Origin: an uncultured Cytophagales bacterium
GTDB taxonomy: Bacteria; Bacteroidota; Bacteroidia; Cytophagales; UBA9547
Reading direction: 5' to 3'
DNA: 39,190 bases
Assembly: GCA_945957555.1 (NCBI GenBank)
Contig: CAMFLX010000029.1
Span: 1-39,190 of the forward strand
A model generated the notes under the pieces. That model was given only the letters and a program-made list of their open reading frames with translations. It made no database searches and was not told the origin of the DNA. Positions 4,133-30,368 of the stretch are shown piece by piece (position 1 is the first letter of the stretch; every line of letters begins with the position of its first letter). Made by a program: the position numbers and the translations under genes.

Positions 4133-5155
4133 CTACTGCAACACAATCTTGCGTACTTGCAGTGTGTTTCCTTGTGTGTCGTAGAGACGTACGTAGTATA
4201 TACCACTCCCGGTCCAAGCGCTAAGGTCTATTTCAGACTTCGCCTGTATTACCACGTTTTCAAAAACGCTCAAACCTGTACTGTTTACAACTTGTATTTT
4301 ATATCCACTTAATAGTGCGTAATTGCCATAATCGATAGTCAAATGATTATCGGATACTGGATTTGGGTAAATTTTAATATTATTCACATAGCTCAAATTA
4401 TCAATATTAGTTACTACAGTTTTAAGAACAAGCATATCTGTTTCACTAGAAGTTTGACTACAACTGGTTTCATTGTTGAGAGCACTTACCTCATTTGCTG
4501 TTAATGCCCTGTCGTAGATACGTACGTCATCGATAAGTCCATTGAAATTCCTACTGCTATATCCCGCTTCATCATCATTTCCAATTTTAAAATCAGAACC
4601 TACTACTAGAGAAAAACTATCTGAGGTTTGTTTGATTAGAACACCATCTATATATGTTTTGTATACAGAACCGTCATAGGTTAATACAACAAAGTGCCAA
4701 ATGTTATTCACCAGACTTGGAGTTGTGATAATGTGTTGATGAACCAAACCCGTACCTGCATTTAAATTGGTTATTAGTCTAGATTCTTTATCAATGGATA
4801 GCGTATTAGCGTTACAATAGCCTGTCCTAGAGGCTATAACCGTAATAAAATCTTGACTAGAATTACCCAGAGTTTTGATCCATGCGCATAATGACAACCG
4901 ACCTGAAGGTATTGATTTGACTGAGGTATTAATCCAGGAGGTTCCATCAAAAGAGTAAGCTTTATTAGCTGTTCCAAATCTATCTGTAGTCAAGGTTGGG
5001 GAACCAACAAATGTCCCATTCTTCCCATTACCGCTCTCATCCAATGCATTACCATTAAATGGGTAGTACGCCAAAAGGCCATTCATCAAAGTGCTTTGCG
5101 ACATGCCTACTAAAGAGGTCACGTAGAATCCTAAAAAGAGTAGTTTTTTAATCAT
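4133..5155 (-). CDS. Secreted LamG-domain protein with T9SS C-terminal sorting domain
   Basis: A signal peptide (MIKKLLFLGFYVTSLVGMSQ) is followed by a concanavalin-like LamG/Laminin_G_3 domain running from LLAYYPFNGNALDESG (residues 27-42) to LIDDVRIYDRAL (about 207-218). These two motifs are the hallmark ends of that domain, which usually binds carbohydrate or surface ligands. The C-terminal 80 residues start with IKIYPNP (260-266) and end in GIYYVRLYD...VRKIVLQ, a type A T9SS sorting domain. The protein is therefore probably carried across the outer membrane by the T9SS and released or anchored there. An upstream ATG at 5183-5185 would add ten residues; the chosen ATG begins a proper signal peptide. 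The ligand is unknown. It is read as a single gene between two hairpins with identical arms. Confidence 0.85.
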   Translation of the reverse strand: MIKKLLFLGFYVTSLVGMSQSTLMNGLLAYYPFNGNALDESGNGKNGTFVGSPTLTTDRFGTANKAYSFDGTSWINTSVKSIPSGRLSLCAWIKTLGNSSQDFITVIASRTGYCNANTLSIDKESRLITNLNAGTGLVHQHIITTPSLVNNIWHFVVLTYDGSVYKTYIDGVLIKQTSDSFSLVVGSDFKIGNDDEAGYSSRNFNGLIDDVRIYDRALTANEVSALNNETSCSQTSSETDMLVLKTVVTNIDNLSYVNNIKIYPNPVSDNHLTIDYGNYALLSGYKIQVVNSTGLSVFENVVIQAKSEIDLSAWTGSGIYYVRLYDTQGNTLQVRKIVLQ

Positions 5156-5333
5156 TTGTGTAGTTGTTTTAAATGTGATTATCATTATTGAATATTCCCA
5201 AAGCGATAATATACTGAATTAATTAAAGTCTATAGATGATCGGCTTTATGGCTGATTTTCAAATGCTCTGCAAATTAATAAAATTATTTTAACACACCAA
5301 AAGCCCCATGACACCAAAGTTAATAATAACGCC

Positions 5334-13862: not shown

Positions 13863-16800
13863 ATGAAAAAAGTATGTAAAACCCTGTTATCATTATGGTT
13901 CGTAGTGACCTGTTTCAACCACAGTTTTGCCCAGACCCCTACACTTTGGGGTACTAGTATCCAAGGAGGTATTGGCTCTGGCAATATCTTCTCGCACAAC
14001 ATTGGCACCAACGTAACCAATAATAGAACTAATTTTAAAAATTCAGAAACGCCAACTGCACGTCTTATTCTGAGCAAGGACCAAACTTGCATGTACGGAA
14101 TGACCTATTCCGGTGGCAATGGATTTGGTACGATTTTCAAATATGATCTGAATACGCGATTAGTAAACACTCTGTATGCCTTTAAAGGTGCTGCTTCTGG
14201 AGATGGTGCTAATCCCTTTGGCTCTGTGATCGAGGGCAGTGATGGCGCACTTTATGGTATGACCTACACAGGAGGTAAAAATGGATTTGGTATTGTTTTC
14301 AGATGGTTCAAGGGTAGCTATACAATTTTACATGATTTCAAAGGGGGAGCTGATGGTGCAAGTCCATATGGTTCACTCATAGAGATCAATGGAATCTTGT
14401 ATGGCATGACTTACGCAGGGGGCGATCCTGCTGGCGGAACCGTTGGAGTTGGGACAATTTTTGCATTGGCTATAGATGGATCTTCTTACAAAACATTTCA
14501 ATTCCCTACTGATGGCAGTAAAGGTCAGAACCCCTACGGAAGCCTAGTTGCAGGAGCAGACAACACCGTGTTGTATGGTATGACTTATTCTGGTTCTTCC
14601 AAAGTCGGACCGTCAGGGGTATTATTTACTTTTTCCACCAAAAGCCTTACTATAACAAGTTTACTACACGGCTTTGCTGGTGGCACCACAGATGGAGCTA
14701 ATCCATACGGAGACGTATTGTTCCTTTCGAGCAGCAATACTCTGCTTGGACTTACAAGTAGAGGGGGAGCCTCTAATTATGGAACCATATTTTCGTATGA
14801 TTTGACTAAAGGAAGCTATACCTTACGCTATAGTTTCAACAACAATGTAGGTGGGTATTCCCCTTATGGAACTCTTATGTGTCCTACAGCTGACAACACT
14901 TTTTATTACGGAACTACTACTTTTGGTGGTAGCGAAAGTGCAGGAACTCTTTTTAAGTGGAATCCAAGTAAAGGATATGTAACATTGACTAACTTCAATG
15001 GCACAAATGCAAAATACACCTATTTCACCAATCTATTAGAATATGTAGAACCGCTATGCAAGGGAATGTCGGTCCCCTCCACACCTACATCAATGAAGAC
15101 CTGTTATGGAACAGCCCTTACACTCGAAGCTAAAACCACCGCTACAGGAGCCAGCTTACTTTGGTATGGTACTGATACAACCAATATTGCTACACTCACT
15201 CCCAACATAGTGAGGGATACAACTTCTCCAGGGCTATATTACTATTATGTTTCACAAATCATGAATGGCTGCGAGAGCAAAAAAGTGGCTATACCAGTAT
15301 ATGTATATGGGCTCCCTGCTTTGCCAAATGTAACCACCCCAGTATATTACTGCCAAGGAGCTACAACCAGTCCATTGGTGGCAACATCCAATATAAAAGG
15401 CGGAGGAACGCTTAATTGGTATGGTATTAATGCTAATGGAGGCACCGCAAGCAACACTGCAACAATACCTTCATCTAGCACTTCTGGAACTACAAATTAT
15501 TACGTTTCACAAACCAACACGAGCACTGGCTGCGAAGGACCAAGAGCTAGCATAGCAGTTAATATTTATGCACTGCCAACTGCTCCAGGAGTTTCATCAG
15601 TAGGCTATTGTCTTAATGGAGCAGCAACAGTCCTAACTGCGGTACCTTCCACTTATACCATCCCGACGACAGGGGGACAATACCCATATACACTTAACTG
15701 GTATGGCACCAATGCTACTGGTGGCACCGCAAGTACTGCGGCACCAACTCCAAGCACCAGCACTGCTGGTACTACCACCTACTACGTATCACAGACGCAT
15801 CCCATCACAGGCTGTGAGGGACCTAGAGCTGCGCTAGTAGTAACTGTATTTCCTCTACCTGCAGCACCGACTGTTACAAGCCCAGTTTCTGCCTGTTTGG
15901 GAGGCACTGCACCAACACTAACAGCTACAGGAACATCGCTAAAATGGTACACCAGCTTAACAGGCACAGGAACCACTACACCACCGGTACCGTCCACAAA
16001 GACAGTAGGCACTACAACTTATTACGTTTCACAAACCGATGTCAATGGCTGTGAGGGTCCAAAAGCCAGTATTTCATTTGTTGTAAATGCAATACCAGCT
16101 GCGCCTGTATTTAGTCCACCAAGTGCTTCTATTTGTCAATTCAGTAAATCACCAGACCTCAACACATTCATTAAAAATTATAGTGGCACCCTTTATTGGT
16201 ATAACATTGCCACAGGAGGGAAGCCCCTTACCGGCACTCCTAAAATTGACTCATCAATAGTAACTACCACCACTTATTATCTTTCAAATGCCGTAAATGG
16301 TTGTGAAAGTTCAAGATCGTCTGTATCGGTAACGGTGAACATTACCCCACCAAACCCTGTAGCCCCAACCATTAAACCTGTATGTGCCGGCTCTAGTGAT
16401 ACGCTACGCAGTACAGATAAACCAGTGGGGTTGTTTTGGTGGTATGCCAGCCCAACCGGAGGCACTCCTAACTATAACCCATATTATACATCATTTAGTG
16501 CAAGCACTACCTATTATATCATGGACAGTACGAGTCTGGGCTGTAAGTCTGCTAGGGTTGCTGTTCCTATCCCGATAACTACACCAGCCACACCTTCCGT
16601 GAGCATAACCGCTTCTTCTACAAATGTGTGCGCTGGAACTTCTGTTACTTTTACTGCCGTGCCCGTAAATGGCGGCACATCTCCATACTACGCATGGTAT
16701 CTTAATGGCACACAAATCACATCCACGATTACTGGGACATTCACAACTACCCTCAGTAGCAATGCTACGGTATACGTTGTGATGACTTCTAATGCAAACT

Positions 16801-19800
16801 GTATTGCCCCTAAAACGGCAACATCTACAACCACATCGGTTACGGTAAACAGCTTACTCACCCCAGCCGTGAGTTTGACTTCGACCGCAACAACTATTTG
16901 TGCTGGAACATCCGTAACTTTTACGGCCACACCAACCAATGGGGGCTCGAGTCCGATTTATCAATGGCGTATTAATGGCATCAATGTTGGAGTCGCAAGC
17001 AGTACCAATACCTTCACCAGCACTACCTTGGCAAATAACGATGTAATTTCGGTATTAATGACTTCCAATGCGACCTGCGTTACCTCATCAACAGCTACTT
17101 CAGCAAGCAACATAACGATGAAAGTGAATCCTGTGGTGACACCTTCGGTTACATTGTCTTCAACTCAAACCACAATATGTGCTGGGAACACCGCCACTGT
17201 TACAGCTACAGCGACTAATGGAGGCACTGCTCCTCTTTATCAATGGAGAGTCAATGGTATCAATGTTGGGACCAACTCTGGGGTTAACACTTTTACAAGC
17301 ACGACTCTGGCAAATGGCGATGCTGTATCGGTAATTTTGACATCAAATGCTACATGCGCTACTCCGACTACAACCATCTCTAGTTCAAACATTACATTTA
17401 CGGTAAATCCAAAACTGAGTCCGAGTGTCATCGTCTCTACACCTGCGACTACAGTATGTCCTGGTTCCTCTGTGACTTTCACTGCAACACCCACGAACGG
17501 TGGCACGACACCTTCTTATCAATGGTACCTGAACAGCATACCAGTGACGGCGACCACAGGAAGTGTGTATACTACTATAGTGAGCGGAGGGGCTAGTGTA
17601 TATGCCATACTAACTTCTAATGCCACATGTTTGAGTAGCACTACAGCAACTTCCAATACTACTACGGTAACTACTGGCTCGAATCTAGTACCTACCATAT
17701 CAATATCTACACCTGCGACAACAGTATGTGCTGGCAACGCCACTACATTTACAGCTAGTGTGGCTAATGGGGGCAGTGCGCCATCCTTCCAGTGGAAAGT
17801 CAATGGAACAAATGTTGGGACGGGTGGCAATAGTTTTACAAGCACAACACTCCTTACAAACGATAAAGTATCTGCTGTCCTTACATCTAATGAAACCTGT
17901 GTTACGACAGCTACTGCAACTTCTAATGTCATTACAATGACCGTTAATAATTCACCCAACATAAGCAGCAGCGTTACCGCGACTAGCCCTGTATGTGATG
18001 GTACTGCAAGTATTGTAACTATCAATGCAGCCAGCGGGGTTACCTATATGCTCAAAGACCAGAACGGCAACAATCTGGGATCTGGCATAGCTACTGGCAA
18101 TGGCGATTTTAACATTAATACCATTAACCTTTTGGCACCTTCCATGCCAGTAAAGGATACCATAAACATAACAGCTTCCATCCCAGGATGTAATATTGTA
18201 AATCTAAACACGAAACCTGTTGTTGTGGTAAATCCAGCGCAAGCAGCTGGCGCTACAGTAACAGCTACATCACCCATCTGTTCTGGATCACCAAGTATCA
18301 TTTCTATAGCTGCGACCCCCGGAATAACTTATACAGTTAGAGACCAAAACAATACCGTCATCGGAAGTGCGCTTGCTAATGCAAGTGGGATTCTCAACAT
18401 AACAACTGGTACATTAAATGCATCTATAGGACCGACGATATACACCTTGACAGTTACAGCTTCGATAGCAGGATGTAACAATGTTGTATTAACTACAAAA
18501 CCTACAGTACAAGTAAATCCGCTCCAAACAGCAACTGCAACTGTTACAGCGAGTTCTCCTATATGTTCTGGAAATACAAGCATAATAACTGTAGCCGCCA
18601 TCAATGGCATTACCTACACTGTAAAGGATCAAGTTAATAATATTTTAGGGACAGCAACTGCCACCAGTACTGGCAATTTGAATATCAATACAAGCATATT
18701 GACAGCTTCTGGAGCTGTAATCAAAGACACATTAAACATCACGGCGAGTATTGTGGGCTGTAACAATGTACCACTTACTACGAAACCAATTGTCACTATT
18801 AATCCCGTACAAAACGCAGCCACTTCTGTAGTAGCCACTTCTCCAATATGTAGCGGCAGTTCAAGCGTAGTCACAATTGCTGCAACAAGTGGCATCACAT
18901 ACACTGTCAGAGATCAGAGCAATGCGATATTGGGGACAGCTACTGCAACAGCCAATGGAAACATCAATATTACTACCAGTGCTTTATCGGCTCTAACTGC
19001 CCCCACCGTGTATACGCTGAAGATCACCGCTTCCGCCGCTGGTTGCAGTGACGTCATTTTAACGAATACGCCAAATGTCATGGTAAATCCACTACAAAAC
19101 CCTTCCGCATCTGTAACGGCAATTTCACCTGTGTGCCTCAACAGCAGCAGTACGGTAACTATTGCTGCTACTAACGGAATCTCTTATACAGTAAGAGACC
19201 AAAGCAACACAATACTGGGTACAAAAACAGCAACAGCTACGGGCAATCTTGCCATCACAACTTCGGCACTAACCAGTACAAGTCCTTACACGCTAAGCAT
19301 AATGGCTTCAATACCTGGCTGTGCTAATGTTGCCTTGACCACAACACCAGTAGTAACCACCAATGCCAGCATTGTACCATCTGTAGCAATTACTACCCCT
19401 ACTACTACAATTTGCGCAGGAGCCTTGGCAACATTTACGGCAAATCCTACCAATGGGGGTACGACTCCTGGATATCAATGGAGGATCAATGGGGCAAATG
19501 TGGTGGGGGCCACTGGCAGTACTTTTTCTAGTAGTACGCTTACCAACAATGATGCAATATCCGTCGTAATGACCTCAGTAGCTGCTTGTGCATCACCGGC
19601 CACAGCAACATCAACAAATGTTACCGTAGTGGTTAATAACACGATTACTCCATCTGTTAATATTACCAGTAGTGCATCTGGAGCAATCTGTTCTGGCACT
19701 TCTGTAACATTCACAGCGACAACCACCAATGGTGGTACCGCCCCAGGGATTCAATGGTTCATTAACAATACTCCATCAGGAACCAACAGCGCTGTATTTA

Positions 19801-22800
19801 CCACCACCGCTCTCAAAAACAGTGATACAGTTTCTGCGGTTTTAACTTCAAACGCCAATTGTCTCGGTACCGGCACCGCAAAATCGAATAAAATTGTCAC
19901 TGCTGTAAATCCGAATTCAACTCCGACTTTAATCATTACCACACCATATCCAACTATTTGCGCTGGCACTAATGTCACTTTTACTGCGACTTATACTAAC
20001 GGTGGCAATAACCCTAGCATACAATGGAAAGTGAATGGCACTAATACTGGCATTGCCTCTTCTTCCAATACTTTCTCGAGTTCTAGTTTTGTAAATGGGG
20101 ATGTGGTATCTGCTGTTCTAACATCAAATGCAAGCTGTCTTACAAGTACAACTGTAAATTCATCGTATACCATAACGATGACTGTAAACCCCAATTTAAC
20201 ACCAACAGTAGGAATAACTACCGCATCAACAAGTATTTGTAAAGGTACGGACGCTGCATTTACAGCAACAGCTATAAACGCAGGATCATCACCAACTTAC
20301 CTTTGGAAAATAAATGGCAGCAATAAAGGCACCTATACAAGTTCGAACACATTCAGCAGCAATGCACTAGCAAACAACGATATCGTATCGGTACTCGTCA
20401 AATCTAATGCTACTTGTATCGCTATAGACTCTGCGCTCTCTAATGGAATACCAATTTCAATAAATACTGCTCCAAACATATCAACACCACCAACAGCGTT
20501 AACCGCCTGTGAAGGAAGTACAGCCACCTTCTCGGTTGTCGCCAATGGTGCAGGACTGAGTTACCAATGGAAGGAAAACGGAAAAGATATTGCAGGCGCC
20601 AATAGCTCTAGTTTCAAAATCAATGCAGTAGCAAGCTCTCAAGACAACAACTTATATAGTGTATCTATCAGTGGAACATGTGCCCCAAGTGTAGTAAGTA
20701 ATGCCGCACTCCTTACTGTAAAAACCTTACCCAAGATCTTGACACACCCCTTGGACAATACCACATGTACAGGAGGAAGTGTAAACTTGAGCATTGCCGC
20801 AACAGGAACGGGAATCTCGTATCAGTGGCAAGAAAATGGCGTAAACATTAATGATGGCGGTCTTTATTCTGGCACACAAAACGATACGCTGACTTTAACA
20901 GGCGTAAATAGCGCTCAAAACAATAAAAAATATACAGCTATCATCAGTAATGGTTGTACACCTAATGCGCTGAGCAATCCAGCAACACTTACTGTTGGAA
21001 CAAATGTGATCTCATCCATCAGCATTACCGCTTCTGACACGGTGGTCTGCAAAGGAACTATGGTAACGTTTAAAGCCAACTCTTCTAATGGAGGCTCAAA
21101 TCCAAGCTTCCAATGGCTTCGCAACAATACCGCAATCGCAGATGCGACCAGTTCTACATTTACGTCTGACTCATTAAGCAATGCCGATCTGATATCTTGC
21201 CAGATGACATCCAGCAACTCCTGTGTAACGACCAAAACAGTAAGCTCCAAGGCCATATTCATGGATATCAACAGTACCCTACCTACGATCACCAGTATCA
21301 TTAATGGCAATATCTGCAATACTGGAAAAGCAAATATTTCAGCAATACCTTCCGCAGGTATTATCAAATGGTTCAATACAAGCACTGGCGGTCTGGCTTT
21401 AGATACAGGGCAAACATTTACCACCCCAGTCATCTCAAGCAATGCTCTCTACTATGCAGAAGCTGAAAATAAAGGTTGCATCTCTCAGTCCAGAACTCCT
21501 GTAAAAGCCAATGTAAGCACGCAAGCAGTGGTATCAGCTGGAGCGGACCAAACCGTATGTGAATCCTCCAAAACCATATCACTAGTAGGGACATCAAATA
21601 CAGGTGCTGTACTGTGGACAGGTACAGGTGCAGGCTCTATCAACAAAACAGATTCCCTTTCTGCTTCTTATAACATATTAGCCACAGATGTCACTGCTGG
21701 AAAAATCACATTCATTGCAACTTCTGACAAAAACGGATCTTGCTTGCCAGTATCAGATACGATTATTGTCAAAATCGCTTCAGCAGGCTCAGGTGTAGGA
21801 TACATAGTGCCACTTGACTCCGCGATCATTGCAAATATGATTATCAACAACTTCCCAAGCACGCAAACAGTGTATAAAAGCAATGACCCAAGCACCTGGA
21901 AGGGAATAAAAACGGCATGTGGACATGTTACAGAAATCAGATTGCCTAACAAAAACTTAAACGGCACTCTTTCTGAACTAGAAAACTTATCACAATTGGA
22001 GGCACTAGATCTGTCAAGTAACTCATTAGATTCTATTGAAACAGATTTAAGCACGATTTCAAATACGATCAAGACATTAAATCTGTCTAAAAACACAATC
22101 CAATACAAAAGAAGCATTGTTTTTGATAGTTACAGCGACCTTGATTCTGTAAACTTCTCATATAATGCTTTCGCAGATAGTCTCTACTTTATCCATGACG
22201 CCCCATTCTATTTGGATTTGAGTCACAATGCGATTCTACACTTTGGAGTTTCAAAAAATGGCGCAAAGGATCTTAAAACAAAGTTCCTGAATCTTTCAGC
22301 CAATCAACTAAACACTTCAAAAATCTCCAACATTGATAGCTTAATACATTTGAAACATTTAGATATTTCTTTCAACCAGTTCAAAGATTCCTTACCGAAT
22401 TTGGGAACTCTGGTCGAATTGCAATACCTAAACGCGTCAAACAATAATTTAAGCAATAGTATCCCAAATTTAGCCGTGATGACTAATCTAGATAGTCTCT
22501 ACTTGGCCCATAACTCATTAAACGCTGGATTTGCAAATTTAAAATCCAACGCTGGCCTTGTTGCTGTTGACTTAGGAAACAATAAGTTTAAAGGCGATCC
22601 CTCGGTAGACTTAAGCGCTTTAAGTCAACTTCAATACTTTGCCATCGATTCAAACAATGTAGATGGTACAGAAAAGAATTCAGGCGTTACAAGTCTACCA
22701 GTACTTCCTCTAAATAAAGGTTTAAAACTGCTAGTACAGGACAATCACTTAGATTTTATCGATCTGGAGCCTTATGCTACTTTATTCAATAAAGTAAGTG

Positions 22801-23897
22801 CTTCCTACGCCCCACAGTATGATAGTATTGATAAGCATTACACCATAAGACCTGCTGAAGGCAGTTTCTTGAGTATGACGACCACACTCACCGGTAACAA
22901 CACTCAATACCAATGGCAAAAATACAGTACGGCATCACAAACGTATGAAAATCTAAATATACAAAGTGCCACAGAGCAAACGTTTAAGAAACTTTTTGCA
23001 AATTCGGATACTGGAAAATATAGCGTAGTTGTCAGCAACACCGATTTCCCTGGTTTAAAATTCTACAGAAGACCTGTCTCTGTAGAGGCTTGCGATTTCT
23101 CATACAATACAAATTTCTTTGTAAAAAAACCTGCGCTTGACAAATGCTTTGGTATTGACACTCTCTTCGTTCAGTTTACAACAAAAGATAATAAGCCTGT
23201 AACTGATTTTTCAAACATTTGGTACTTTAACGACAGGAATGTAATCAGTGAATATCGAAAATCAATTCCTATTCATGTTAGTGGTATATATTCATTCTTG
23301 GCATTCGACTCTACAACAGGATGTTCGATCTTTTCTAAAGACACCATAATGGTCAAAACTACCAGCAAGATAAATCCTGCACTTGAAATTAAATTTAACA
23401 GTCAAGATTCATCTGTTTTTATCACTAATATCTCAACTGACTTTCAAGGATCAGCATTACAGTGGCTCATTAACGGGCTTCCTATTGCCAATGCAACAGG
23501 TAAAAGTCTAAGAATCTACTACAATGGCACCTATCAGCTCTTGTCTATCAAAACAGACAGCTGCTCTGCCATTTCAGAACCACTAAGAATCACCGCTTTC
23601 GGCAAAACTTTTGAGAGAAAAGACCATGCATTCAATACTCAAGGTCAAGTGATCTTAAGCCAAGACCAAGAACTGAATGTGTTCCCAAGCCCAGCTCAAA
23701 ACGAATTCAATATTGAAGGCACACAATCAGGCAGTATGATCCACATTACAAATCCTCAGGGTGTTCTCGTCTCGTCTATTACAGCTACGTCCAAAACGGC
23801 AACCATAGATGCTAGTGACTTCCCTTCAGGACTCTACACGATTCAGGTAACAACAGATGATGTGCCGAGATTCCTTAAAATTATGATTGTGAAATAA
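13863..23897 (+). CDS. Giant secreted mosaic protein: kelch-like, Ig-like, LRR and T9SS sorting domains
   Basis: This 3344-residue protein is assembled from repeats. After a signal peptide ending SFAQ come six copies of an LYGMTYSGG...GTIF motif (about 78-385, TIGR03803-like). Then come six Ig_7/CHU_C-type modules with WYG...GGT and TTYYVSQT...GCE (about 399-905). Next are five modules with TICAGTSVTFTA...YQW...SNATC (909-1365), and five of another type with SPICSG...TYTVRDQ...GC (1366-1836). Four more of the earlier type follow (1837-2203), then two I-set-like domains (2204-2381), one further Ig-like module, two CHU-type modules, and an LRR block (about 2686-2960). More beta domains lead to a T9SS tail starting LNVFPSPA (3271-3344). 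Most modules carry a cysteine pair, presumably a disulfide. It is probably exported by the T9SS and acts as an adhesin or surface binder; the ligand is unknown. Confidence 0.9.
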   Translation: MKKVCKTLLSLWFVVTCFNHSFAQTPTLWGTSIQGGIGSGNIFSHNIGTNVTNNRTNFKNSETPTARLILSKDQTCMYGMTYSGGNGFGTIFKYDLNTRLVNTLYAFKGAASGDGANPFGSVIEGSDGALYGMTYTGGKNGFGIVFRWFKGSYTILHDFKGGADGASPYGSLIEINGILYGMTYAGGDPAGGTVGVGTIFALAIDGSSYKTFQFPTDGSKGQNPYGSLVAGADNTVLYGMTYSGSSKVGPSGVLFTFSTKSLTITSLLHGFAGGTTDGANPYGDVLFLSSSNTLLGLTSRGGASNYGTIFSYDLTKGSYTLRYSFNNNVGGYSPYGTLMCPTADNTFYYGTTTFGGSESAGTLFKWNPSKGYVTLTNFNGTNAKYTYFTNLLEYVEPLCKGMSVPSTPTSMKTCYGTALTLEAKTTATGASLLWYGTDTTNIATLTPNIVRDTTSPGLYYYYVSQIMNGCESKKVAIPVYVYGLPALPNVTTPVYYCQGATTSPLVATSNIKGGGTLNWYGINANGGTASNTATIPSSSTSGTTNYYVSQTNTSTGCEGPRASIAVNIYALPTAPGVSSVGYCLNGAATVLTAVPSTYTIPTTGGQYPYTLNWYGTNATGGTASTAAPTPSTSTAGTTTYYVSQTHPITGCEGPRAALVVTVFPLPAAPTVTSPVSACLGGTAPTLTATGTSLKWYTSLTGTGTTTPPVPSTKTVGTTTYYVSQTDVNGCEGPKASISFVVNAIPAAPVFSPPSASICQFSKSPDLNTFIKNYSGTLYWYNIATGGKPLTGTPKIDSSIVTTTTYYLSNAVNGCESSRSSVSVTVNITPPNPVAPTIKPVCAGSSDTLRSTDKPVGLFWWYASPTGGTPNYNPYYTSFSASTTYYIMDSTSLGCKSARVAVPIPITTPATPSVSITASSTNVCAGTSVTFTAVPVNGGTSPYYAWYLNGTQITSTITGTFTTTLSSNATVYVVMTSNANCIAPKTATSTTTSVTVNSLLTPAVSLTSTATTICAGTSVTFTATPTNGGSSPIYQWRINGINVGVASSTNTFTSTTLANNDVISVLMTSNATCVTSSTATSASNITMKVNPVVTPSVTLSSTQTTICAGNTATVTATATNGGTAPLYQWRVNGINVGTNSGVNTFTSTTLANGDAVSVILTSNATCATPTTTISSSNITFTVNPKLSPSVIVSTPATTVCPGSSVTFTATPTNGGTTPSYQWYLNSIPVTATTGSVYTTIVSGGASVYAILTSNATCLSSTTATSNTTTVTTGSNLVPTISISTPATTVCAGNATTFTASVANGGSAPSFQWKVNGTNVGTGGNSFTSTTLLTNDKVSAVLTSNETCVTTATATSNVITMTVNNSPNISSSVTATSPVCDGTASIVTINAASGVTYMLKDQNGNNLGSGIATGNGDFNINTINLLAPSMPVKDTINITASIPGCNIVNLNTKPVVVVNPAQAAGATVTATSPICSGSPSIISIAATPGITYTVRDQNNTVIGSALANASGILNITTGTLNASIGPTIYTLTVTASIAGCNNVVLTTKPTVQVNPLQTATATVTASSPICSGNTSIITVAAINGITYTVKDQVNNILGTATATSTGNLNINTSILTASGAVIKDTLNITASIVGCNNVPLTTKPIVTINPVQNAATSVVATSPICSGSSSVVTIAATSGITYTVRDQSNAILGTATATANGNINITTSALSALTAPTVYTLKITASAAGCSDVILTNTPNVMVNPLQNPSASVTAISPVCLNSSSTVTIAATNGISYTVRDQSNTILGTKTATATGNLAITTSALTSTSPYTLSIMASIPGCANVALTTTPVVTTNASIVPSVAITTPTTTICAGALATFTANPTNGGTTPGYQWRINGANVVGATGSTFSSSTLTNNDAISVVMTSVAACASPATATSTNVTVVVNNTITPSVNITSSASGAICSGTSVTFTATTTNGGTAPGIQWFINNTPSGTNSAVFTTTALKNSDTVSAVLTSNANCLGTGTAKSNKIVTAVNPNSTPTLIITTPYPTICAGTNVTFTATYTNGGNNPSIQWKVNGTNTGIASSSNTFSSSSFVNGDVVSAVLTSNASCLTSTTVNSSYTITMTVNPNLTPTVGITTASTSICKGTDAAFTATAINAGSSPTYLWKINGSNKGTYTSSNTFSSNALANNDIVSVLVKSNATCIAIDSALSNGIPISINTAPNISTPPTALTACEGSTATFSVVANGAGLSYQWKENGKDIAGANSSSFKINAVASSQDNNLYSVSISGTCAPSVVSNAALLTVKTLPKILTHPLDNTTCTGGSVNLSIAATGTGISYQWQENGVNINDGGLYSGTQNDTLTLTGVNSAQNNKKYTAIISNGCTPNALSNPATLTVGTNVISSISITASDTVVCKGTMVTFKANSSNGGSNPSFQWLRNNTAIADATSSTFTSDSLSNADLISCQMTSSNSCVTTKTVSSKAIFMDINSTLPTITSIINGNICNTGKANISAIPSAGIIKWFNTSTGGLALDTGQTFTTPVISSNALYYAEAENKGCISQSRTPVKANVSTQAVVSAGADQTVCESSKTISLVGTSNTGAVLWTGTGAGSINKTDSLSASYNILATDVTAGKITFIATSDKNGSCLPVSDTIIVKIASAGSGVGYIVPLDSAIIANMIINNFPSTQTVYKSNDPSTWKGIKTACGHVTEIRLPNKNLNGTLSELENLSQLEALDLSSNSLDSIETDLSTISNTIKTLNLSKNTIQYKRSIVFDSYSDLDSVNFSYNAFADSLYFIHDAPFYLDLSHNAILHFGVSKNGAKDLKTKFLNLSANQLNTSKISNIDSLIHLKHLDISFNQFKDSLPNLGTLVELQYLNASNNNLSNSIPNLAVMTNLDSLYLAHNSLNAGFANLKSNAGLVAVDLGNNKFKGDPSVDLSALSQLQYFAIDSNNVDGTEKNSGVTSLPVLPLNKGLKLLVQDNHLDFIDLEPYATLFNKVSASYAPQYDSIDKHYTIRPAEGSFLSMTTTLTGNNTQYQWQKYSTASQTYENLNIQSATEQTFKKLFANSDTGKYSVVVSNTDFPGLKFYRRPVSVEACDFSYNTNFFVKKPALDKCFGIDTLFVQFTTKDNKPVTDFSNIWYFNDRNVISEYRKSIPIHVSGIYSFLAFDSTTGCSIFSKDTIMVKTTSKINPALEIKFNSQDSSVFITNISTDFQGSALQWLINGLPIANATGKSLRIYYNGTYQLLSIKTDSCSAISEPLRITAFGKTFERKDHAFNTQGQVILSQDQELNVFPSPAQNEFNIEGTQSGSMIHITNPQGVLVSSITATSKTATIDASDFPSGLYTIQVTTDDVPRFLKIMIVK

Positions 23898-23917
23898 ATC
23901 ATCAAATTTTCAATAAT

Positions 23918-23954
23918 GAAAAGGGACAACATACTTATATTGTTGTCCCTTTTC
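23918..23954 (+). terminator. Strong terminator after the giant gene
   Basis: A perfect 14-bp stem pairs GAAAAGGGACAACA (23918-23931) with TGTTGTCCCTTTTC (23941-23954) around a 9-nt loop, 20 bp after the stop. It implies that the following two genes have their own promoter. Confidence 0.88.
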
Positions 23955-24048
23955 ATTTCCAAACAATCCAACCCATTAACAAACCTCAGAACTTAACCTT
24001 TTGCATTACTCCTCGTAAAAGAAAATGATTTTTTAAAATTAATTTTTC

Positions 24049-24996
24049 ATGAGAAACAATATACTTTTGGTCCTCGCGACCCTATTATCCACAGTTGTTT
24101 ACAGTCAAAAAAAAGTAGCATCACTTCCCTCTTATGATAATCTTATCAAAGGTAGCAAGCCTGTTGTTGAAAAGTTGGCAAATGGCTCCATTAACTGGAC
24201 TCAGCAGTTTATAGAAGCCAAAGGACAATCCGTAATAGATACGGTGCGTTTCAAAAACAAAGCCCAAGCTAAGGCGATGGCAACAAGAGGTGCTATAGTA
24301 GAGGCTCAGAGAAATCTGTTAGAGATCATTAAAGGTGTAAATATCGTAGGAGAAACTACGGTTGAAGACATGATCACAACTAGTGATAAAATCCAAAGCA
24401 GAGTTGAAGGTGTTGTGAAAGGTGCTACACAAGTAGGTGATGCAACCGTAAAAGATGGACTAGTGCAAGTAACTATGCACATAGCACTATACAGTGCTGA
24501 CGGCCTTGCTCCTGTTGTAGCAGACTCTATGGAGAAAATAATTGCAAGAGAAACCAAAAGCGCAACCCCAACAACTACAACTACAGAAAGCTCAACCACT
24601 AGCGTAGATTCCACAAAAAAAACCACACCTCCCGTGGCGAATACCTCCACCACTGGTACAGGAAGCGATGCAGAGATGAAGCCTCTCGTGTTTAATCTTA
24701 ACGGAAAAAAAATAGATCCTTCTCTTTTCCCTGTTATAACTGACTCTACTGGCAATCTGGTATTGGACTTATCTAAGTTTTACGACCCTAAAAAAGGAAA
24801 ATTCCCTCAATATCTACAATTGGGCAAAGACATTGCCAAAGCGGCTAACTTCAAAAAAGGTGTAGAAGTTATTGATATCATCCAAAACTCCAACGGAAAG
24901 TTCGTAGTGAGTGATAAGATTAAGAAGAAAATCAATTGGGACAAAATCGCAACAGCTGCTAAAAAAATAGGCAAATTTGCAATGCTATTCTTATAA
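24049..24996 (+). CDS. Periplasmic LPP20-like domain protein with Ser/Thr-rich linker
   Basis: The 315-residue protein has a signal peptide (MRNNILLVLATLLSTVVYSQ) without a lipobox. Residues about 55-150 (FKNKAQAKAMATRGAIVEAQ...GVNIVGETTVEDM...VQVTMHIAL) follow the LPP20/FlgT_N pattern. That pattern is an Ala-rich helix, a Gly-Val turn, a T-V-E segment, and a closing beta hairpin with DGLVQV. A low-complexity Thr/Ser linker follows at about 172-205. A C-terminal domain includes NGKKIDPSLFPVITD and a basic end. The function is unknown. It starts a pair with the next gene, 23 bp away, whose N-terminal domain has the same pattern. The family assignment is from motif pattern, not a search. Confidence 0.65.
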   Translation: MRNNILLVLATLLSTVVYSQKKVASLPSYDNLIKGSKPVVEKLANGSINWTQQFIEAKGQSVIDTVRFKNKAQAKAMATRGAIVEAQRNLLEIIKGVNIVGETTVEDMITTSDKIQSRVEGVVKGATQVGDATVKDGLVQVTMHIALYSADGLAPVVADSMEKIIARETKSATPTTTTTESSTTSVDSTKKTTPPVANTSTTGTGSDAEMKPLVFNLNGKKIDPSLFPVITDSTGNLVLDLSKFYDPKKGKFPQYLQLGKDIAKAANFKKGVEVIDIIQNSNGKFVVSDKIKKKINWDKIATAAKKIGKFAMLFL

Positions 24997-25019
24997 GCCA
25001 TTCCATCTCTTATTTCATT

Positions 25020-26987
25020 ATGAAGAAACTTTTTACATTATTACTCCTCAGCTTTGCTATGCTGGCGAGCAATGCGCAAGAAATCAAAACAGTTGAGGCC
25101 AAAGGCCTAGGTGTTGGAAGAAATGATGCGCTTCAGGATGCGCTCAGAAATGCAGTATCGCAAGCTGTCGGGGTGGCTCTTTCGTCTCAAACTTCCGTCG
25201 AAAACTTTATGGTCATCAGCGATGCAATTGCGACCAATACTCAAGGCTATATCAAATCCTACACAATTGTTAGTGAAAAGCAAAATGGAGAGAACTATGA
25301 AGTTGCCGTAAAAGCAGACGTAACCACCACCCCACTTAAAGCAGACTTCAACCTGCTGGCAAAAGGAGTTGGCGGTGTTCGTTTCTTGGCCATGTACGAT
25401 TTAAGGAGTATTAATAACTCCGAAAAAAGTGATTATGACTTTGTATTGGACCAAATCAATAAATATTTCGCCTCTAAAAAATACAGATACATTGACAGAA
25501 CACGATTTGCCTCACTACAAAGAGAAACTTTGTTAATGCTGGGTGATCAAGACACCTCTGGAGTATCTTATGCACAGCAACTAGCACTGCTTGCGGACGC
25601 TCAATTTCTCATATTGATCAAAAATATCCGTAAAGAAACGATCAGTGAGCAGTTTGATACCAGAATTAAAAGTCGCGTCATCGTGGATGCCATTACTCTG
25701 GACAACTGCACAGGAGAAGGCTTAGGCTCTATAAGCTTACAAGGTAATTGGCAAGAGGGTAATAACAATGTAAACCAACCTGGCATTGCCTCTGCCCTTC
25801 AAAGTGACATGGATTCGCTTCTCAACACCTTTAGTGCCTATATTGGAGGGTGGATAAACAACGGGACGCCTTTTGAAATTAGGTTTTACAGTAGCGGTAC
25901 TTATAGAGATTTGAGAGACTTGCGTACAAAACTCAAACAAGACCCTGCTTTTGGAGGAGATTTGGAGATCGTATCGGCAAGTGAATTCACAAAAATCAAC
26001 TGTACTTACAAAAAGAAAGCCGATGAAATGGCAGACAAGATATTGGACTATGCAGACCAAGTCCCTACCTTAAAAGACAAAAAACTAGATGTAAAGCTCA
26101 TTTATGGTCGACAAATTTCTTTCGCTCCTCAAGGTACTGAAATCAAGAAAACAAAAGTAGCTACTGTACTCAAAGAGCATGATGCCAAAAGCCAGCCGAC
26201 AACAGAACAGAAAGAAAAACCAAAGGAAGAAACAACACAAACCTCTACCTCGACAACTTCTAACTCAGATGAAAAAAAGCTACAAGGAGGCTTTACAATC
26301 TTTACTGAAGCTGGAGAGAAGTTTTGGCTTATCGTGAATGGAAGTAAAATCAATGAGAACCCTGCTGCTAAAGTTGTTTTAGATAAATGTAACGAAGATG
26401 GGGCCAAAGTAAAAATCCTCTTTGCTGACAGCAAACTGAAACCCATTGACGACAAACTCACGGTATTCAGCTTTATGACAGGTGAAGTGTACAAAAACAC
26501 TTATGTTATTAAAAAGAAAAAGGATAAATATTCGATCAAAATGGTTACAACAACAGTCATTGGTCGCAGATTTAAAGATGAGAACAACAATGGTAAAAAT
26601 GACTATATAGAAGAGGAAGAGAACTTTAAAGCTGGGACAAAAACCAATACTACGTCCTCGGAAAATTCAACTACGATCCAAACTCTAAATTGCACCACTA
26701 CAATGCCTGATGCAGATTTTCAAGAAGCCTTGGCTCAACTAAAGTCTGCATCAATGGACCGAAGCTTTACAAAAGTTGCCTGTAACATCATGAACAATAA
26801 CTGCGTGAGCCTAAATCAGGCAAAAAACATAATAGCCTGTGCATCATTTGACGACGACAAATTACAGTTGGCCCAAATAGTATACACCAATTGTACCGAA
26901 AAGAACAAGTACTATCTATTGAATGACCAATTTACATTTCCTTCGACCAAGGAAAAATTCAATAGCTTTTTATTAAGTAAAAAGTAG
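25020..26987 (+). CDS. Periplasmic FlgT_N/LPP20-like protein with CsgG/FlgT-like middle region
   Basis: The 655-residue protein has a signal peptide ending LASNAQ. Residues 20-115 form an LPP20/FlgT_N-like domain (VEAKGLGVGRNDALQDALRN, QAVGVALSSQTSVENF, ENYEVAVKADV). The next 250 residues (VRFLAMYDLRS, YIDRTRFASLQRETL, LLADAQFLILIKNI) resemble the middle domain of FlgT and the nucleotide-like fold of CsgG-type proteins. A Lys/Thr/Gln-rich linker at about 380-415 leads to a DUF-like tail; FKDENNNGKNDYIEEEE could bind calcium. A C-terminal part (about 560-655) resembles a DUF4476-like helical domain (LKSASMDRSFTKVA...LNQAKNIIACASFDDDKLQLAQI...YTNCTEKNKYY). It lies 23 bp after the preceding gene and ends at a strong terminator. 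The role is unknown. Confidence 0.65.
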   Translation: MKKLFTLLLLSFAMLASNAQEIKTVEAKGLGVGRNDALQDALRNAVSQAVGVALSSQTSVENFMVISDAIATNTQGYIKSYTIVSEKQNGENYEVAVKADVTTTPLKADFNLLAKGVGGVRFLAMYDLRSINNSEKSDYDFVLDQINKYFASKKYRYIDRTRFASLQRETLLMLGDQDTSGVSYAQQLALLADAQFLILIKNIRKETISEQFDTRIKSRVIVDAITLDNCTGEGLGSISLQGNWQEGNNNVNQPGIASALQSDMDSLLNTFSAYIGGWINNGTPFEIRFYSSGTYRDLRDLRTKLKQDPAFGGDLEIVSASEFTKINCTYKKKADEMADKILDYADQVPTLKDKKLDVKLIYGRQISFAPQGTEIKKTKVATVLKEHDAKSQPTTEQKEKPKEETTQTSTSTTSNSDEKKLQGGFTIFTEAGEKFWLIVNGSKINENPAAKVVLDKCNEDGAKVKILFADSKLKPIDDKLTVFSFMTGEVYKNTYVIKKKKDKYSIKMVTTTVIGRRFKDENNNGKNDYIEEEENFKAGTKTNTTSSENSTTIQTLNCTTTMPDADFQEALAQLKSASMDRSFTKVACNIMNNNCVSLNQAKNIIACASFDDDKLQLAQIVYTNCTEKNKYYLLNDQFTFPSTKEKFNSFLLSKK

Positions 26988-27004
26988 CCTCAAACCCCTA
27001 TTCG

Positions 27005-27031
27005 AAAAGCCCCAGAGTTTGGGGCTTTTTT
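27005..27031 (+). terminator. Terminator of the LPP20/FlgT-like gene pair
   Basis: AAAAGCCCC (27005-27013) pairs with GGGGCTTTT (27021-27029), followed by further T. It lies 18 bp after the stop. The arms match those at 4079 and 5334. Confidence 0.88.
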
Positions 27032-27548: not shown

Positions 27549-28655
27549 ATGAAAAGAATCATTTACATATTTCTGGGTGCGTTTTGTATGATGGTCAGCC
27601 TACAGGCGCAGACGGTAAATATTCCTGACAATAATTTTTTGACCGCATTGCGAGACGCATTAGTTGATGCTAATAACGATGGACTCATCCAAATCTCTGA
27701 AGCCAAACAAGTCACTACTCTCGATATAGACAATAAAGACATATCAGATTTGAGCGGTATTGAGGTTTTCACCAACCTTACTCGATTAAATTGTTCCTCC
27801 AACCAGCTCAGCACTGTTAACATCAGCAAAAATAAGGCATTAGAATACCTTGATTGTAGTTTTAATGCATTAGAGACCTTAGACATTACACAAAACATTT
27901 CATTGACATATTTAGATTGTGGCATCAATGCATTGAAAACCTTAGATTTGAGCCAAAATACGAGTCTTAAAGAACTGTATATATTCTATAACGATTTCAG
28001 CACTATAGACATTAGTAAAAATATTGCACTACAAACATTCAAATGCGATCAAAACAAGATTGCTTCTTTGGATTTGAGCAAAAACATAGCATTACTCTAT
28101 GTGTCTTGTCCTTATAATATAATTGGAGGCCTCGATGTTACCATGAACAAGTCTTTGATATCGCTAGAATGCTACTCTAACCAAATCTCCCAACTTGATG
28201 TAACTCAAAACACAGTACTCAACTTTCTATTATGCCAATCCAACCAATTGTCCAGTTTAAATGTAACCCAGAATTTGGCATTAAAATCATTGATTTGTAA
28301 TTCTAATACCGATCTAAAGACAATATGCGTATATGAAGTTGACAGCGTCATCAACAATAGCCAATTCAAAAAAGATCCTTTAGCGGTATGGTCCGACACT
28401 TGTAAGATTCAAACGTCTATCACAGAAAATGAATATACCCAAAACAAAACCACCGTATATCCCAATCCGACTGAAGGCTTGATTTATTTAGGTGATGAAG
28501 CCATATCTGCAACCCTATACAATAATCTAGGACATGAGATTATGAGCTCAACTCATCAAACTCTGGATTTAAGTACCCAAACTGAAGGCATTTACATAAT
28601 TAGAGTTTTGTATAAAAATCAAAAATACTTGACTCACAAAATCACTAGGAATTAA
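27549..28655 (+). CDS. Secreted leucine-rich repeat protein with T9SS sorting domain
   Basis: A signal peptide (MKRIIYIFLGAFCMMVSLQAQ) precedes an N-terminal cap (VNIPDNNFLTALRDALVDAN...ISEAKQVTTLDI). About nine LRR units of 21 residues follow, of the form LxxLDCSxNxLxxLDIxxN (roughly residues 72-260). Several units carry Cys at the same position (LNCSSN, LDCSFN, LDCGIN), which is the bacterial internalin-like/BspA-like type with a stacked Cys ladder. The last 75 residues begin TTVYPNPTEGLI and end GIYIIRVLYKNQKYLTHKITRN, a type A T9SS sorting domain. It is probably a surface-exposed binding protein. No partner is encoded adjacent to it on the same strand. Confidence 0.88.
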   Translation: MKRIIYIFLGAFCMMVSLQAQTVNIPDNNFLTALRDALVDANNDGLIQISEAKQVTTLDIDNKDISDLSGIEVFTNLTRLNCSSNQLSTVNISKNKALEYLDCSFNALETLDITQNISLTYLDCGINALKTLDLSQNTSLKELYIFYNDFSTIDISKNIALQTFKCDQNKIASLDLSKNIALLYVSCPYNIIGGLDVTMNKSLISLECYSNQISQLDVTQNTVLNFLLCQSNQLSSLNVTQNLALKSLICNSNTDLKTICVYEVDSVINNSQFKKDPLAVWSDTCKIQTSITENEYTQNKTTVYPNPTEGLIYLGDEAISATLYNNLGHEIMSSTHQTLDLSTQTEGIYIIRVLYKNQKYLTHKITRN

Positions 28656-28995: not shown

Positions 28996-29856
28996 TTACT
29001 TAACCAACAATTTCATTACTTTATTGTTTACTAACAACTGATATACACCTGCATCTAAAGATGAAATATCCAATTGGTTTGCAATCAAGTCACCAGCATT
29101 AACCAATACACCTTGTGTATTAAAAATTTTATAAGCACCAGAAGCTGTAACATATACAGTGCCTGTTGCTGGTTGCGGATACAAAGTCAATTCTTCAGTC
29201 AAAACTTGGCCACTGCTCAGGCTTGTAACCACATCGTCTCCGGCATCGTTAGGATCTGTTTCTCCAGAATCAATTTTCCCATTACCATTCTTATCTTCCT
29301 TTCCATCTGACAGACCACCTTTGTCCGTATCAGCAATCAATGGGTTTGTTTGAGTAAGCGTATCCATATCATAGCCAGGAACCCCTACTTCTACTCCGTC
29401 ATTTACACCATCAGCATCGGTATCTGGATCTTTGGGATTAGTACCCAATTCCACTTCTCCAATATCAGGAATACCATCATTATCCGTATCCAACAAACCT
29501 ACTCCACCTGGTTCTCTCAAAACCAAAGGTGTTGTACTCGCTGGCAAGGTTATTGGATTTGTAGAGGTCATATTGATTTTCAATGTACCATAACCTGAAG
29601 TAGTTGGAGAATACGAAATCGAAGTACCAGCCGCTAATGGTAAAGAGGTTGGAAATCCTTCAATCGCCAAAAGTATTGTTATACTCGTAGCATTAGTTAC
29701 AGTTACCGAATCGTTCACAGCTACTGTTACATCTGTTTGATCAAATGTTGCCACTGCTGGAGCACCTACTGGCTTAATACTCACCTTGTGATTCAATGCA
29801 AATGAGCTGAAGCCTAAGCCCATTGCCACACATAAAAATTGTAATTTTTTTACCAT
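28996..29856 (-). CDS. Secreted TSP type 3 calcium-binding repeat protein with T9SS sorting domain
   Basis: Starting from MVKKLQFLCVAMGLGFSSFA, a signal peptide leads to a beta-rich domain (about 25-115). A thrombospondin type 3/EF-hand-like calcium-binding stretch follows, with DTDNDGIPDIGE, TNPKDPDTDADGVNDGVE, DTDKGGLSDGKED and KNGNGKIDSGETDPND. The aspartates at alternating positions are the calcium ligands. A C-terminal domain starting LTLYPQPATGTVYV and ending GVYQLLVNNKVMKLLVK is a T9SS type A sorting signal. An upstream ATG at 29887-29889 would add eleven residues before the signal peptide and is less likely. Such proteins are commonly displayed at the cell surface as rigid calcium-stabilised stalks. 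The ligand is unknown. Confidence 0.85.
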   Translation of the reverse strand: MVKKLQFLCVAMGLGFSSFALNHKVSIKPVGAPAVATFDQTDVTVAVNDSVTVTNATSITILLAIEGFPTSLPLAAGTSISYSPTTSGYGTLKINMTSTNPITLPASTTPLVLREPGGVGLLDTDNDGIPDIGEVELGTNPKDPDTDADGVNDGVEVGVPGYDMDTLTQTNPLIADTDKGGLSDGKEDKNGNGKIDSGETDPNDAGDDVVTSLSSGQVLTEELTLYPQPATGTVYVTASGAYKIFNTQGVLVNAGDLIANQLDISSLDAGVYQLLVNNKVMKLLVK

Positions 29857-30368
29857 ACGTAATTGCTTTAATAATATTGAACAATCCATAAATGTAAATA
29901 TTATTTGATCAAAACAAAAAAACTATTCTACAGGGAAACGAGCTCGCTCCGGCTCAAGCCCTAAGCCTAAGAAAGCGTTTATACACCGAACCCATTTGGG
30001 CAAAACGTAAACAGGGATCCATATAAGTATCTACAATCAAACAGTGATTCTGTACATCTTGGCGATCTTAAACATTTTTTATTTAAAAACTCATTGATCG
30101 GAATGAAATCATTTGAATGCAAAAATCCTAATAGAAATTTGTTGATATACTGAAACAATTTCAGAGCAGTAAACTTTTTGAGAATCCTTATTTTAAAGCT
30201 GTTGAAATATTAGTGTAATTATGTCTAATCAAAACCTGCAATTCCATACCCCATATACTCTACGCCTGCTAATGATGTATAGCAGGTCTTTTATAAAGCA
30301 TCAGAATGTCCCTGCTAGCCTGGCGGATATGTATATTTGATTTTCAATAAGCTATTTATGAAAAAACA
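29857..30368. other. Intergenic region with a G+C-rich patch and a weak hairpin
   Basis: No gene is supported; the longest ATG-started frame I checked is 16 codons. A patch at about 29934-30010 is clearly richer in G and C than the rest and holds small inverted repeats (CCCATTTGGG near 29987). A hairpin pairs CCTGCT (30265-30270) with AGCAGG (30281-30286), followed by TCTTTTATAA, so it could terminate a short plus-strand RNA. No RNA family is recognised. Confidence 0.35.

Follow-up and report, generated by a model that had tools for sequence, protein, structure and literature searches.

Proteins of the FlgP and FlgT kind have been studied as flagellar add-ons, and the phylum Bacteroidota is mostly without flagella. 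What, then, is a FlgP/FlgT-like pair of genes doing in an uncultured member of the Cytophagales? The pair lies in a stretch of 39,190 nucleotides (contig CAMFLX010000029.1; the window), in which an earlier note had described two tandem exported proteins. Both ORFs, here called p1 and p2, were found as described, on the + strand and separated by 23 bases; NCBIfam provided no name for either of them. Signal peptides and lipoboxes were assessed by eye together with a simple pattern. The layout of the unit and its borders is as follows:

23915..23957, + strand: hairpin with a 17-bp stem in the gap between a giant gene and p1 (-24.2 kcal/mol, z -7.4, T-poor tail)
24049..24996, + strand: p1, 315 amino acids, exported LPP20/FlgP-like protein
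25020..26987, + strand: p2, 655 amino acids, exported and FlgT-like, with a p3 (DUF4476) unit fused to it
27004..27030, + strand: clear intrinsic terminator 3' of p2 (z -4.1)

The hairpin upstream of p1 is probably a terminator or boundary between the giant gene and p1. A terminator had been claimed at this place before; the stem bears this out and the T tail, which is poor, does not. With this hairpin before them and the intrinsic terminator after them, p1 and p2 look like one transcription unit, apart from the giant gene. An Rfam search of the window gave no match. The giant gene (13863-23897) is a 3344-amino acid ORF made of many similar repeats and, since no matching ORF was present in the regions of the five relatives of the unit that were compared, it seems not to belong to the unit. 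By eye, its end resembles a T9SS sorting tail. Pfam Por_Secre_tail was found on three proteins of the window (4133-5185, 27549-28655 and 28996-29889; LamG, LRR and TSP3 types), which suggests that the host organism probably has T9SS cargo.

Three regions were distinguished in p1:

amino acids 53-147 (approximately): LPP20 (SHS2-type) domain
amino acids 160-205 (approximately): low-complexity linker
amino acids 208-315: conserved C-terminal domain, resembling D2 of Tp0624

Pfam LPP20 matched p1 at E 0.0032 (18.3 bits, under the cut-off of 25.9). Against the PDB chains, phmmer revealed a flagellar-motor scaffold chain of Campylobacter jejuni (9hmf, E 7.2e-8), which is labelled 'Lipoprotein, putative' and which we take to be FlgP, as well as the FlgP-type lipoprotein chains 9yfg, 9yec, 9yds and 8z5n at 1e-4 to 0.01. 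A 10-row p1 profile matched 9hmf at E 3.5e-13 (2.2e-13 with a 36-row profile), and its five PDB matches at E<=1 were these same FlgP-type chains, two of them labelled FlgP and the others just 'Lipoprotein'. Judged by sequence, the LPP20 domain of p1 is closest to flagellar FlgP, the protein of the Campylobacter basal disk and the Vibrio LPHT ring. The likeness extends to residues 96-130, which align without gaps to chain 9hmf across the hairpin insert segment of FlgP. According to the structural report, the rings each contain a continuous sheet formed by this hairpin, which is unique to FlgP among the proteins compared there, FlgT included (PMC12222027). The structural model of p1 is poor (pLDDT 56, with the hairpin region under 50); its only Foldseek match at E<=0.001 was the C. 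jejuni motor chain 9hmf_A (1.3e-4).

LPP20/SHS2 domains also occur in proteins that are not known as FlgP-type rings, such as Lpp20 and dodecin, and the C-terminal domain of p1 had no sequence relative in the PDB (best E 0.17). The best VIA match of the low-confidence p1 model was Treponema Tp0624 over D1-D2 (Z 7.0, 187 residues, model residues 44-315), with which p1 shares a two-domain layout while lacking the OmpA-like third domain. The Tp0624 study reports that nearly 50 proteins from various bacteria, with no known function, combine D1 with D2 (PMC5104382). On this basis p1 and p2 could be non-polymerising periplasmic structural or stress proteins of the Tp0624 D1-D2 type, steadying the envelope as small complexes. 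We regard this as unlikely, since Z-scores as high as 7.0 also turn up for models that match nothing clearly and the LPP20 sequence of p1 is nearest to the FlgP-type chains.

The N-terminal domains of p1 and p2 are related to one another, with a BLASTP E of 7e-5 and hhalign E-values, applicable to this one pair only, of 3.5e-9 and, with deeper alignments, 2.6e-8. The p2 profile also picked up p1 in the adjoining ORF in all 10 genomes of the same order that contain full-length p2. Distances among the p1 and p2 proteins are correlated (r 0.75, n=36; 0 of 1000 shuffles as high), as are those among p2 and p3 (r 0.72), both of which would also be expected from shared species descent. On p2, Pfam FlgT_N cleared its cut-off of 28.8 bits, scoring 30.3 (E 6e-7), and it matched 28 of 39 p2 members at E<=0.01. 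The LPP20/FlgT_N pattern that the earlier note had proposed for the two N-terminal domains is borne out.

The domain list given there for p2 was incomplete, the ferredoxin-like third domain and the C-terminal DUF4476 unit being absent from it:

25077..25343, + strand: N-domain of p2 (amino acids 20-108), FlgT_N/LPP20
25344..25862, + strand: middle domain of p2 (amino acids 109-281), FlgT_M/CsgG/PelC/TolB_N-like fold, DUF6175-like in some relatives
25863..26120, + strand: third domain of p2 (amino acids 282-367), ferredoxin-like in the model
26265..26984, + strand: fused p3, with an N-domain (about amino acids 420-510) and DUF4476 (562-651)

The CsgG/FlgT-like nature of the middle domain finds its support in structural matches to FlgT, CsgG and PelC, and not in Pfam, where CsgG, FlgT_M and FlgT_C all failed to match p2 at E<=1. 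The model of residues 1-415 is of moderate quality (pLDDT 66, with the hairpin region under 50); a mixed p2/p3 alignment (A2) with misplaced p3 rows was excluded from folding. For this p2 model Foldseek ranked FlgT first (3w1e, E 1.2e-8), with an LPHT-ring chain in second place (8z5n_0, 1.4e-7). FlgT 3w1e, from the Vibrio H-ring, was aligned to residues 23-277 (Z 9.1, 206 residues), so that the order of a FlgT_N and then a CsgG/TolB_N-like domain is kept; the rmsd of 9.8 indicates that the N and middle domains are packed differently in the p2 model, and over the whole model the TM-scores against FlgT are low (0.24-0.28). Residues 277-363 of the model aligned to ribosomal S6 permutants, which are ferredoxin-like (Z 8.1-8.4).

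Taken alone, the modelled middle domain aligned just as well to PelC (Z 9.7), CsgG (9.3), LptE (8.9) and TolB (8.3) as to FlgT (9.1), and it appears to share its fold with the PelC/CsgG/LpoB superfamily of outer-membrane lipoproteins. In CsgG and PelC this kind of domain forms rings. Perhaps the middle domain is the active part of an accessory protein of this superfamily, which gates an outer-membrane exporter or activates a peptidoglycan synthase, the LPP20 domains merely binding partners and no FlgP-style disk being made. Such an accessory would sit well with the presence of a separate small gene in place of DUF4476 in 4 of 40 loci (see below) and with the Pfam DUF6175 matches of six of the 39 p2 members (best E 4.2e-7). 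DUF6175 is a candidate parent of the p2 middle domain, but hmmsearch with a profile of this domain found no DUF6175 protein, and hhalign between the two was weak (E 4e-4 and 3e-3). We consider this a possible but rather doubtful explanation, because FlgT alone among the listed structural matches covers both the N and the middle domain of p2, and because no exporter or synthase gene recurs near the p2 loci. In addition, p2 differs from PelC, CsgG and LpoB in that an LPP20 domain precedes the shared fold and a lipobox-like motif is rare (2 of 39 members).

The match of Pfam DUF4476 (PF14771) to residues 562-651 of p2 is strong, at 61.2 bits against a cut-off of 22.5 (E 1.1e-16). In the relatives, p3 is a separate gene just downstream of p2 with its own signal peptide. 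At the 40 loci, no ORF that matched the p2 profile also matched that of p3; the fusion is therefore found only in the window, where the signal peptide of p3 has been dropped. A second DUF4476-type stretch is located elsewhere in the genome of the window (G000:C180:8293-8568, L002), in a 506-amino acid frame.

A search with the single p2 sequence returned DUF4476-region matches plus a few short ones outside the family; among plasmids it found nothing, and among genome contigs no confirmed relative. It was a profile scan of the genome contigs that brought out relatives: 40 loci carry p2, nearly all of them titled Bacteroidota (Flavobacteriales, Bacteroidales, Cytophagaceae, Sphingobacteriales and others, and one as 'uncultured bacterium' only). 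p1 adjoins p2 in 37 loci, upstream in 35 and downstream in two (L100 and L107); it is missing from L099 and L114, while L112 starts at p2. A third exported gene follows p2 in 36 loci and is of the DUF4476 type in 32 and a small gene in four; two of the remaining loci end at this point (L097, L100) and two are without either type (L122, L127). No other ORF family was common to at least 4 of the 40 loci, and by this measure no link to T9SS or gliding genes was seen. The p2 alignment (A5) comprised 38 of the 40 loci plus the window, and the p1 alignment (A6) 35 of the 37 p1 proteins plus the window, L100 and L117 having been left out of both; in several A5 rows the start is an in-frame codon downstream of that of the longest ORF. 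Within the same order the p2 profile matched 12 of 390 genomes, full-length in 10, and in an even sample of the phylum full-length p2 was present in one of 395 genomes, the window's own. The p1/p2 unit is, then, wide but sparse and patchy across the phylum.

The small third gene encodes 175-183 amino acids (L126 2439-2990, L129 9374-9901, L130 6211-6738 and L133 9363-9890), with a lipobox-like Cys in three of the four. It was considered as a relative of FlgO and rejected, there being no Pfam FlgO match at E<=1; the PDB yielded nothing below E 0.06 and hhalign against the p2 middle domain nothing.

Searches for two flagellar markers, FlhA (PF00771; export gate) and FlgI (PF02119; P-ring), with controls positive in 4 and 3 of 14, gave no match in the 10 genomes tested that carry the unit. 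Since these include the genome of the window, the claim that flagellar genes are absent is upheld for these two markers. Neither p1 nor p2 is a true FlgP or FlgT: their C-terminal domains are different, p1 has no lipobox, and there is no flagellum. In p1, a lipobox-like motif was seen in the first 45 residues of 0 of 36 rows; an extra conserved C-terminal domain is present, and the gene lies beside a FlgT-like gene and a DUF4476 gene. Compared with FlgT, p2 has a third domain that looks ferredoxin-like and a fused DUF4476, and Pfam gave no FlgT_M or FlgT_C match. Some FlgP proteins of Helicobacter are also without a lipoprotein signal, according to one study (PMC11756786).

The FlgT_N and FlgP similarities and the patchy distribution could also be explained if p1 and p2 were left over from a flagellar system since lost, or were a mobile piece of one. 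This is very improbable, given that loci from several orders of Bacteroidota have kept the ORFs intact and that neither marker occurs in the 10 genomes tested that carry the unit; moreover, the extra domain of p1 and the third gene are not known to be part of flagellar FlgOPT.

The reading that we favour, with moderate confidence, is a conserved FlgP/FlgT-like periplasmic complex of the Bacteroidota, probably ring- or disk-forming, that is used outside flagella. The earlier suggestion of another envelope machine fares well insofar as a non-flagellar envelope role fits an operon conserved phylum-wide; that this amounts to a machine is presumed. p1 and p2(-p3) would be the window's version of an operon for a periplasmic complex on the outer-membrane side, built on the principle of the FlgP/FlgT rings without a flagellum. 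From their signal peptides, both proteins are predicted to be exported by Sec. As p1 appears to keep, in its LPP20/SHS2-type domain, the segment matching the ring-forming hairpin of FlgP, we infer that p1 subunits probably pack next to one another, making a ring or disk. p2 may dock through its own LPP20/FlgT_N domain, adding a ring domain of the CsgG/PelC/FlgT_M type, and the DUF4476 part would be a third subunit completing the complex at the inner face of the outer membrane, as its fusion to p2 and the gene order suggest. Most likely the assembly would brace the outer membrane or surround an outer-membrane exporter as a collar in the periplasm. More tentatively, the three-gene operon might supply flagellum-free Bacteroidota with a periplasmic ring or disk of the FlgP/FlgT type, a non-flagellar envelope machine, maybe of the kind from which the flagellar rings were drawn.

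Literature searches found no published description of the p1/p2 operon; co-occurrence of LPP20 with Flavobacterium proved irrelevant, LPP20 being there the name of a Legionella gene. If the proposal is true, a FlgP-like/FlgT-like pair kept side by side in flagellum-free organisms of several Bacteroidota orders would mean that parts of this kind have uses in envelope structures other than the flagellum. The operon is small and testable, with isolate hosts among the records, by title Adhaeribacter soli and Flavobacterium aurantiibacter.

Further FlgT_N/LPP20-like proteins, grouped as family f4, are encoded at L065 4791-9268 and L066 2493-5893; a shared KLDDFGRI-type gene lies beside them, and the L066 protein is near a DUF6175 gene. 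The L065 and L066 genes are a second, related non-flagellar cassette. The DUF6175 cassettes of Bacteroidota resemble p2 in that some p2 middle domains match DUF6175, and differ from it in consisting of separate genes, the FlgT_N-like and DUF6175 genes of L066 being close neighbours. In a member of the window's own family whose genome is without the p1/p2 unit, L087 6369-8388 carries DUF6175 together with two small putative lipoproteins.
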